Origin: an uncultured Planctomycetota bacterium
GTDB lineage: Bacteria > Planctomycetota > Planctomycetia > Pirellulales > Thermoguttaceae
Assembly: GCA_902766935.1 (NCBI GenBank)
Contig: CACXFR010000185.1
Coordinates: 1-36,392 of the forward strand
DNA: 36,392 nt
Direction of reading: 5' to 3'
Below, one piece after another: positions 33,985-36,392 of the stretch; positions within the stretch are counted from its first letter, which is position 1; every line of letters starts with the position of its first letter. The notes under the pieces were generated by a model. It worked only from the letters and a program-made list of their open reading frames with translations, did no database searches and had not been told where the DNA came from. Both the position numbers and the translations under genes were made by a program.

Positions 33985-34650
33985 TTAAAAGAGAGCTAAT
34001 ATCCGCTCGGCCGAAAGATCATCGAACGAGTCGACCAAAAGATCGACCCCGTCGTACTCTTCCGGCTCATGCCCGCCGGAAAAGAAGCCGACGATCTTCA
34101 TCCCCGCCGCGCGCGCGGCCGCCACGCCGCTGGCCGAATCGTCGATCGCGACACACCGATTCGGGGGAAGACCCATCTTTCGGGCGCAGGCCAGAAAAAT
34201 GTCGGGGGCGGGTTTCGCCTGCGGAACGTCGGTTCCCGAAACGACCCCTTTCAGACAGGGGAGGATCCCGAGCCGCGCGACGACGAAATCGACGTTGACC
34301 GCCGGACCCGACGAACCGACCGAAAGGGGAAATCCGCGCCGCGCCAGTCCGCGCACGAAGTCGACCGCCCCCGGCATCGCCGGAAAATTCTCCTCGGCCA
34401 TCTCGCGGTAGATCGTCTCTTTCCGCTCGGCCATTTTCTGAACTTCGCCGTCGGTCAGGGGACGCCCCCAGTGGTTGGCCAGGATCGCGTCGGAACGCTG
34501 TCCGAACGTCTCCTGAAAGAGCCGCGGAGTAAAGTCGAAGCCGTCCTCTTTCCCGAGAATCCGCCAGCTTTCGAGGTGGGCGGGATTGCTGTCCATCAGA
34601 ACGCCGTCAATATCGAAGATCACGCCGGGGAGTGTATCACGCTCGGTCAT
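33985..34650 (-). CDS. HAD-superfamily phosphatase / beta-phosphoglucomutase-like
   Basis: 221 aa from ATG 34650; the frame is open upstream into the RNA locus but those residues look non-coding. HAD motif I is FDIDGVLMDS (nucleophile D13, acid D15), motif II SVGSSGPA, motif III Lys in QAKPAPDIF, and motif IV AIDDSASGV. The helical cap between motifs I and II (about 20-85) is of the C1 type seen in beta-phosphoglucomutases and phosphoglycolate phosphatases. Probable substrate is a small sugar phosphate, unassigned. It lies 63 nt downstream of the structured RNA on the same strand and may be transcribed by read-through from the RNA promoter. The ribosome site is weak (CCCCAGCG before the ATG). 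Confidence 0.85.
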   Translation of the reverse strand: MTERDTLPGVIFDIDGVLMDSNPAHLESWRILGKEDGFDFTPRLFQETFGQRSDAILANHWGRPLTDGEVQKMAERKETIYREMAEENFPAMPGAVDFVRGLARRGFPLSVGSSGPAVNVDFVVARLGILPCLKGVVSGTDVPQAKPAPDIFLACARKMGLPPNRCVAIDDSASGVAAARAAGMKIVGFFSGGHEPEEYDGVDLLVDSFDDLSAERILALF

Positions 34651-34713
34651 CGCTGGGGAAACACGGAAACGGGTAAAACAAACGCCCCTCCATGCAAAAG
34701 CGTGAAGAGGCAT

Positions 34714-34921
34714 AAAAAAACCTTGAGAGGGAGATACATGCCCAACAAACAATTTTGGGAGCCCGCAAGGCAAGGGGGCGCGTGCAACAGTAGCGATGTG
34801 ATCGCCGAGCACCGAGGTGTCATCGACGCTATACAGTACTACGCTGATAGACCCAGCACCCATCGGGCACATGTAACGACTCCCCCGGATGTGATCCGCG
34901 GGCATGCACTCCTCTCAAGGT
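34714..34921 (-). ncRNA. Structured ncRNA of about 208 nt, 6S-RNA-like candidate
   Basis: The minus-strand transcript would start at about 34921, seven bases after a strong -10, and end in a run of seven U (plus 34714-34720). Its two ends pair perfectly: CCUUGAGAGG (plus 34911-34920) with CCUCUCAAGG (plus 34721-34730). After a small internal loop there is a second 7-bp stem, CAUGCCC/GGGCAUG. The interior can fold as a long imperfect rod (for example GGGGG with CCCCC). Two short hairpins share the sequence GAUCACAUC (plus 34886-34898 and 34793-34805). Size, closed terminal stem, rod shape and own promoter fit 6S RNA, the RNA-polymerase mimic. I found no SRP RNA tetraloop motif and no tRNA-like 3' end of tmRNA. 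A new sRNA family is the alternative. Confidence 0.55.
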
Positions 34922-34927
34922 GATTCT

Positions 34928-34956
34928 ATTCTACCACGATCTTTTTGCCTTGACAA
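34928..34956 (-). promoter_or_regulatory. Promoter of the structured RNA
   Basis: On the minus strand: TTGTCA (plus 34951-34956), 17-nt spacer, TAGAAT (plus 34928-34933), with a second TAGAAT overlapping at 34923-34928. The expected start at 34921 is one base before the 5' arm of the terminal stem. Confidence 0.75.
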
Positions 34957-35325: not shown

Positions 35326-36392
35326 ATGAGAATGATAACCAAAACAAATTGGATCGTCATCTTTGTCGTCCTTGCGGCCGCGATGCTGGCCGTCGGAACG
35401 GCGTCGAGCGTCTCCTCCTGCTGCGGACGCCCCGACCCGGCGCCGGTCATCGAGCCGTACACCTACGCGGCGCCTGAGCCGATCCCGACTTTCGCTGCGG
35501 TCGAACCGGTGATGATCTCCGCACCCGTCGTCGCCGCGCGCCCGGTGGTTAACAACTGCACGGTTCAGCGCCCCGCGTACAAGATGGTAACCGAGACCGA
35601 AATGAGGGAAGAGGAAATCACGACCTACGAGACGGTCTGGGACGAAGAAACGCGTTATCGCACCCGCACCGTCTGCAAACGGGTCCCCGAGACGACCATT
35701 CACCGCGAGACGGTTCGCGTCTCGAAGCCTGTCTGGGAAACGATCGAAAAAGAGACGAGTTACGACGTCGTCCGCTACGTGAGCGAAACGAGCGAGCGGG
35801 AAGAGGTCAAGACGGTCTGCAAACCGGTCACCGAGTACCAGGAAAAGCAGATCGTCGAGACGGTCGACCGCCCGGTGCAGGAGACGATCATGCAGCAGCG
35901 GACCCGGCTGGTCAGCCGTCCGGTCACCACCTGCGAAACGCGTACGCGCGACTGCGGCGAGTATGAAACCCAATACGTCGAAAAGCCGGGGAAGCAATAC
36001 ACCCGTCTGACCTGGCAGCGCGGGGGTGAATACTACGATCCGGCGACGGGCCGTACCCGCAACCGCCTTCCCGGTCTCTACTGGACCGATCTGAATTCCG
36101 CGCCCGAATATACCGAGCAGCGCGTCTACAAGCCGCGTCTGATAACCGAAACCGTTCCGGTCACCCGGATGGTCGAAGAGAGCGTCGTCGAGGAAGTTCC
36201 GGTCACGGTCAACAAGATCGTCAAAGAACAGGTCGTTCGAACCGAGCAGGTTCCGGTCACCCGGATGGTTGAAGAAAAAATCGTCAACAAGATTCCGATC
36301 ACGACGTACAAACCGGTCACCGAAAAGGTCGTGAAAAAGACGCCCGTCCGCGTCTGCCGGATGGAAACGGTCGACGAGGTCCGGGAAACCCC
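35326..36392 (+). CDS. YTV-repeat surface protein (partial, runs off window)
   Basis: At least 355 codons from ATG 35326; GGGAG stands 9 nt upstream, and ATG 35332 is an alternative. The N-terminal signal segment is TNWIVIFVVLAAAMLAVGTA, followed by a Cys pair (SSCCGRPDPAP) that might be lipid-modified, and a Pro/Ala-rich stretch. From about residue 80 on, the protein consists of short repeated strands rich in Thr, Val, Glu, Arg and Cys, such as YRTRTVCKRVPETTIHRETV, VCKPVTEYQEKQIVETV, VPVTRMVEESVVEEVPVTV and VPVTRMVEEKIVNKIPITT. This resembles the YTV repeats described for Planctomycetota proteins. A spacer, GGEYYDPATGRTRNRLPGLY, interrupts the repeats in the middle. Probably a secreted or cell-surface structural protein cross-linked by cysteines (inference). 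The stop is outside the window. Confidence 0.8.
   Translation, partial: MRMITKTNWIVIFVVLAAAMLAVGTASSVSSCCGRPDPAPVIEPYTYAAPEPIPTFAAVEPVMISAPVVAARPVVNNCTVQRPAYKMVTETEMREEEITTYETVWDEETRYRTRTVCKRVPETTIHRETVRVSKPVWETIEKETSYDVVRYVSETSEREEVKTVCKPVTEYQEKQIVETVDRPVQETIMQQRTRLVSRPVTTCETRTRDCGEYETQYVEKPGKQYTRLTWQRGGEYYDPATGRTRNRLPGLYWTDLNSAPEYTEQRVYKPRLITETVPVTRMVEESVVEEVPVTVNKIVKEQVVRTEQVPVTRMVEEKIVNKIPITTYKPVTEKVVKKTPVRVCRMETVDEVRET

Follow-up and report, generated by a model that had tools for sequence, protein, structure and literature searches.

A very probable, strongly diverged 6S RNA gene in a rumen planctomycete of the Thermoguttaceae

We propose, with a confidence close to certainty, that positions 34714-34921 (minus strand) of the stretch of DNA analysed here (the window, 36,392 nucleotides in full) are ssrS, the gene for 6S RNA, in a planctomycete of the rumen that belongs to the Thermoguttaceae. 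6S RNA mimics an open promoter and keeps RNA polymerase in check. The RNA of the window is homologous to the 6S RNAs of the Rfam family RF00013 through intermediates, is single-copy and rod-shaped and has a covarying closing stem, and on sequence comparison we take it to be a strongly diverged new member of the known 6S family.

The features of the locus are collected in Table 1. A sequence-only reading of the segment had described a TTGTCA-N17-TAGAAT promoter without giving its strand; it is present on the minus strand (34956-34928), with a spacer of 17 nt and a match to the consensus at 10/12 positions. Two promoter-like sites were counted in the 800-bp region against 0.5 expected from shuffles, and most Thermoguttaceae homologs have a -10-like hexamer 5-10 nt upstream of their RNA start. 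A34921 is the likely start of the RNA, which we infer to be transcribed from its own promoter. The same reading had seen a perfect 10-bp terminal stem, its arms 190 nt apart, running into seven U. Both elements were recovered: the arms (CCTTGAGAGG/CCTCTCAAGG, 10 nt each) are exact reverse complements, 190 nt being the distance from start to start with 180 nt between them, and T7 at 34720-34714 gives an RNA of 208 nt. No comparable arm pair was obtained in 100 shuffles of the window. That no coding frame explains the segment could also be upheld. Open frames traverse 34714-34921, for instance 33985-34905 (minus), but Pfam support within this frame is limited to the HAD phosphatase part, which begins downstream of the RNA, near 34641-34649, and the relatives carry insertions and deletions in the RNA segment, which speaks against coding.

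Table 1. Features of the putative 6S RNA locus (window coordinates)
Feature	Position	Strand	Remarks
-35 element TTGTCA	34956-34951	minus	kept in three genus members
-10 element TAGAAT	34933-34928	minus	RNA start 6 nt further on
6S RNA gene (very probable)	34921..34714	minus	208 nt, from a 5' end near 34921 to a 3' end within U7
Closing stem, 5' arm CCUUGAGAGG	34920-34911	minus	pairs specifically with its own partner across lineages
5' central bubble, putative pRNA template GGGGGAGUCGUUAC	34873..34886	minus	conserved GAGYCGWUA
3' strand facing the template, around GCGGGCUCCCAAA	34756..34768	minus	pairs with GCCCG or alternatively GGGAGUC; conserved within the order Pirellulales
Closing stem, 3' arm CCUCUCAAGG	34730-34721	minus	exact reverse complement of the 5' arm
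U7 run	34720-34714	minus	directly 3' of the closing stem; likely transcript end
Separate hairpin and U-rich stretch	34713-34682	minus	candidate back-up terminator, between the 6S and HAD genes

Around the locus, a HAD-like phosphatase gene (34649-33985, minus) begins some 65-70 nt 3' of the 6S gene and is followed by a gene for an acetolactate synthase-like TPP enzyme (33887-32082, minus); HAD phosphatase and TPP enzyme genes also follow the 6S RNA in locus L005. The plus strand has an open frame at 35326-36390 that encodes 355 aa or more, includes a YTV domain (PF07639) and runs past the window end.

The sequence-only reading had conceded that the primary sequence was insufficient to prove a 6S RNA. 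Even a scan of the segment relaxed to E<=10 does not list RF00013. The Rfam scan of the window at the gathering cut-off returned no 6S RNA and a tRNA at the window edge as the only match, and RF00013 had no match across the window's own whole genome; the direct score thus stays below a cut-off that is a detection threshold and not a biological definition. No other Rfam family matches the segment at the cut-off, and the genus loci gave no match when searched for tRNA and tmRNA. In the permissive scan of the segment, SmY, anti-hemB, mir-1788 and RF_site1 appeared far below the cut-off, and these matches were dismissed as chance. Because RF00013 is blind to the window RNA directly, homology was established through relatives.

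The reach of blastn is confined to the same genus, where the RNA is present in 5/6 other members; the named records carrying the RNA core are rumen or gut MAGs labelled uncultured planctomycete or Thermoguttaceae. A model built from four sequences of the window's genus (R1) matches the window RNA at 34714-34921 and finds the RNA in 42/118 relatives, mostly of the same family, with a single match in every genome except one and with matches that nearly always span the whole model. Searched against all Rfam, three of the R1 loci reach the RF00013 cut-off of 46.4 bits (L052, 49.6; L051, 46.9; L038, 46.4) and L043, L047, L049, L050 and L044 match RF00013 below it; these matches lie on the same strand with ends within a few nt of the R1 positions. 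RF00013 alone, run over 247 Pirellulales genomes, gives 13 matches, four of them above the cut-off and none in the window's genus, and coincides with R1 loci in genomes G008, G010 and G233. These 13 matches were used to build a further model (R2). Since R2 holds no sequence of the window's genus, its match is an independent test: the window RNA is found at 34718-34922 over model positions 1-211, that is in full length, with 35.3 bits and an E-value of 7.6e-9 (E-values of the R1/R2-type models come from a shortened calibration). No other match in the entire 2.2-Mb assembly is significant, the runner-up scoring 9.6 bits.

The 13 RF00013 matches share the motifs GGUGAGCCGAUAC, GCCCGUUGGG, GUGUAUAGCC, GGAUCACAC and GCGGGCUCUCA, and the window RNA has the equivalent motifs in the same order (GGGGAGUCGUUAC, GCCCGAUGGG, CUGUAUAGC, GCGAUCACA and GCGGGCUCCCA); the core common to both, again in the same order, consists of GAGYCGWUA, GCCCGNUGGG, GUAUAGC, GAUCAC and GCGGGCUC. 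By way of R1 and R2, an unbroken chain of relatives leads from the window RNA to the 6S family, and the earlier suggestion of a possible planctomycetal 6S RNA is borne out by homologs that reach the RF00013 cut-off and by the full-length recovery with R2. Compared with the other Pirellulales 6S RNAs matched by RF00013 (L058-L070), the window RNA has the same length and the core motifs in the same order, whereas its closing-stem sequence is wholly different (CUCUGCCAUGUUCGUG-type in most of L058-L070) and it carries GAGUCGUUAC where L058-L070 have GAGCCGAUAC. Members of its order thus pass the Rfam cut-off, whereas the window RNA is too diverged to match at E<=10.

The 208-nt RNA folds at -89.1 kcal/mol, whereas shuffles average -71.1 +/- 4.6 (z -3.9), as a rod of about 200 nt with paired 5' and 3' ends. 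Two outcomes that the earlier reading had named as refuting did not occur: the terminal stem covaries strongly, and the Rfam scans gave no significant hit to another family. In the L007/L032 homolog, the closing stem reads UCCCCUGACC/GGUCAGGGGA where the window has CCUUGAGAGG/CCUCUCAAGG, so that the letters are replaced and the pairing is kept. Among 22 Thermoguttaceae RNAs, the closing-stem arms pair with their own partner at a mean of -36.5 kcal/mol against -18.4 when partners are swapped, and 0/100,000 permutations gave a sum as good as the observed one; for this test the end regions were picked by sequence motifs only, with no model fitting, the loci themselves being model-selected. In the alignment of 49 members, 95.6% of the cells pair and 39/47 pairs (23.5 when shuffled) have both sides changed in one sequence or more, these counts being biased towards the model to which the alignment was fitted. 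The covariation score of the 49 members is 0.463; shuffles give 0.177, and sliding the partners gives no more than 0.091.

The minimum-energy prediction draws the central bubble as a 12-nt bulge on one side and not as a large open bubble, and two core helices compete within 0.6 kcal/mol (GCCCG/CGGGC, -86.3; GGGAGUC/GGCUCCC, -85.7). As the GGGAGUC/GGCUCCC helix covers part of the putative pRNA template, pRNA synthesis would need to open it; such a refolding would be in line with other 6S RNAs (PMC8876501). The GAGYCGWUA template motif is conserved among the homologs. It was not placed unaided by a MAFFT alignment with the E. coli 6S RNA and the Infernal alignment was used, in which GAGCCGAUA of L052 falls on the RF00013 consensus GAgCCgAaa. 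Nucleotide 44 (U44) of E. coli ssrS, whose sequence was verified in annotated genomes, is the final U of GAGCCGAU and the known pRNA start site (PMC8876501). The equivalent base of the window is 34875, opposite which pRNA initiation is predicted (5'-AACGACUCC...), the pRNA extending from there along the plus strand as 5'-AACGACUCCCCCGG. A central bubble with the template in its 5' strand is found in that the motif aligns to the consensus and a 12-nt stretch is unpaired, in a bubble that appears one-sided in the predicted fold.

The RNA therefore resembles E. coli ssrS and RF00013 in its length of about 200 nt, its rod with a long closing stem and its own putative promoter, and it has, like ssrS, a GAGCCGAUA-type pRNA template in the central 5' strand, at a place equivalent to U44. 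It differs from both in a closing stem that runs directly into U7, in the predicted one-sided bubble and in the two competing core helices. In B. subtilis 6S-1 and A. aeolicus 6S, a closing stem and a central bubble have been described, together with pRNA that starts in the 5' strand of the bubble and makes the RNA rearrange (PMC8876501); the window RNA may rearrange by a central bubble collapse helix of the B. subtilis type or by a 3' hairpin of the E. coli type.

By homology, a sigma-A-type promoter of its own would drive the RNA, whose rod and central bubble would imitate an open promoter and bind the RNA polymerase holoenzyme with the primary sigma factor. Under nutrient shortage, the RNA would sequester the holoenzyme. 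Upon nutrient return, the polymerase would copy the 5' bubble strand from a start opposite 34875 into a short pRNA (5'-AACGACUCCCCCGG...), which would rearrange the 6S RNA and free the polymerase. A role in growth phase may be assumed on the same grounds.

The U-run directly follows the closing stem in most Thermoguttaceae homologs and does not do so in several members of other Pirellulales families. Since the closing stem adjoins the U-run in most Thermoguttaceae, it may double as a terminator stem. We tentatively consider, as a possible but rather doubtful model, that the 6S rod of the Thermoguttaceae terminates its own transcription, the completed closing stem releasing the polymerase and fixing the 3' end in one step; the rod would then be, with equal reserve, an intrinsic terminator with a folded 'loop' of about 180 nt. 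The hairpin at about 34713-34682 (-18.8 kcal/mol, z -5.6, with a terminator-like site at 34703-34682) is the ordinary alternative to the closing stem as terminator. Lying right after U7, this hairpin could be a second terminator or mark the primary 3' end before trimming.

The identification as 6S RNA has to be weighed against other readings. A lineage-specific structured sRNA whose rod shape, size and U-tail converged on those of 6S would agree with the missing direct match of RF00013 to the window RNA, and rod shape and size are by themselves not diagnostic. Such convergence is, however, largely refuted and in our view very improbable, given that the homologs reach the RF00013 cut-off, that the core motifs are held in common and in the same order with the RF00013 matches, and that R2, which was derived solely from RNAs that RF00013 finds in other genera, matches the window RNA over its full length and nothing else significantly in its genome. 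Homologs that match RF00013 and a conserved pRNA template motif aligned with the 6S consensus also argue against an Ms1-like RNA, which would bind core RNA polymerase and not the sigma holoenzyme, as in Actinobacteria. A structural kinship of Ms1 with 6S (PMC9130861) and the one-sided bubble, which does not fix the exact binding mode, would fit an Ms1-like RNA; we nevertheless regard it as extremely improbable.

The surroundings of the RNA bear on a further reading, in which it would act in cis as the leader of the HAD phosphatase gene. The same strand, the short gap of about 65-70 nt and the succession of RNA and HAD gene, seen at least in the window and L005, would be consistent with a leader. 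The riboswitch or leader reading is rejected because the gene context changes: the L007/L032 homolog, the most diverged of the same genus, has different gene surroundings, and the Thermogutta terrifontis candidate described below again has other neighbours. In addition, the U-run and a further terminator-like hairpin stand between RNA and gene, and we give a leader next to no chance.

With the 6S identification retained, the models can be applied to the order. 6S RNA was found in 124/247 Pirellulales genomes with R2 and in 130/247 with R3 (a model from 49 sequences, the window included), against 13 with RF00013 in a same-sized draw (247) under the same kind of filters. R2 and R3 found no 6S RNA in about half of the 247 genomes, among them near-complete genomes from the window's own family; genomes G042 and G051 and the same-family genera g28 and g31 are examples without a match. 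The 117 unmatched Pirellulales genomes may lack 6S RNA or may have one that diverged beyond the reach of the models. In a sample of the phylum, RF00013 finds 6S RNA in 62/149 genomes, so that 6S RNA can in itself be detected in the Planctomycetota.

6S RNA has been reported as missing in the group of planctomycete bacteria to which the window belongs and as not found in T. terrifontis. In genome G030, a putative T. terrifontis, R2 gives a 6S candidate at C1:768874-769080 (minus; L101/L107) with an E-value of 1.6e-9, and the candidate has a 23-pair closing stem and a U-run; model R1 under strict filters did not find it. T. terrifontis therefore most likely has a 6S candidate at 768874-769080 (minus). 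Strand-specific RNA-seq has been published for T. terrifontis R1 (CP018477; PMC5673643), and its authors thus already have transcriptome data against which to check the claim. The window RNA and its relatives show much of the reported absence of 6S RNA in planctomycetes to be a limit of the search model, and the models presented here give a ready means to annotate 6S RNA in these bacteria.
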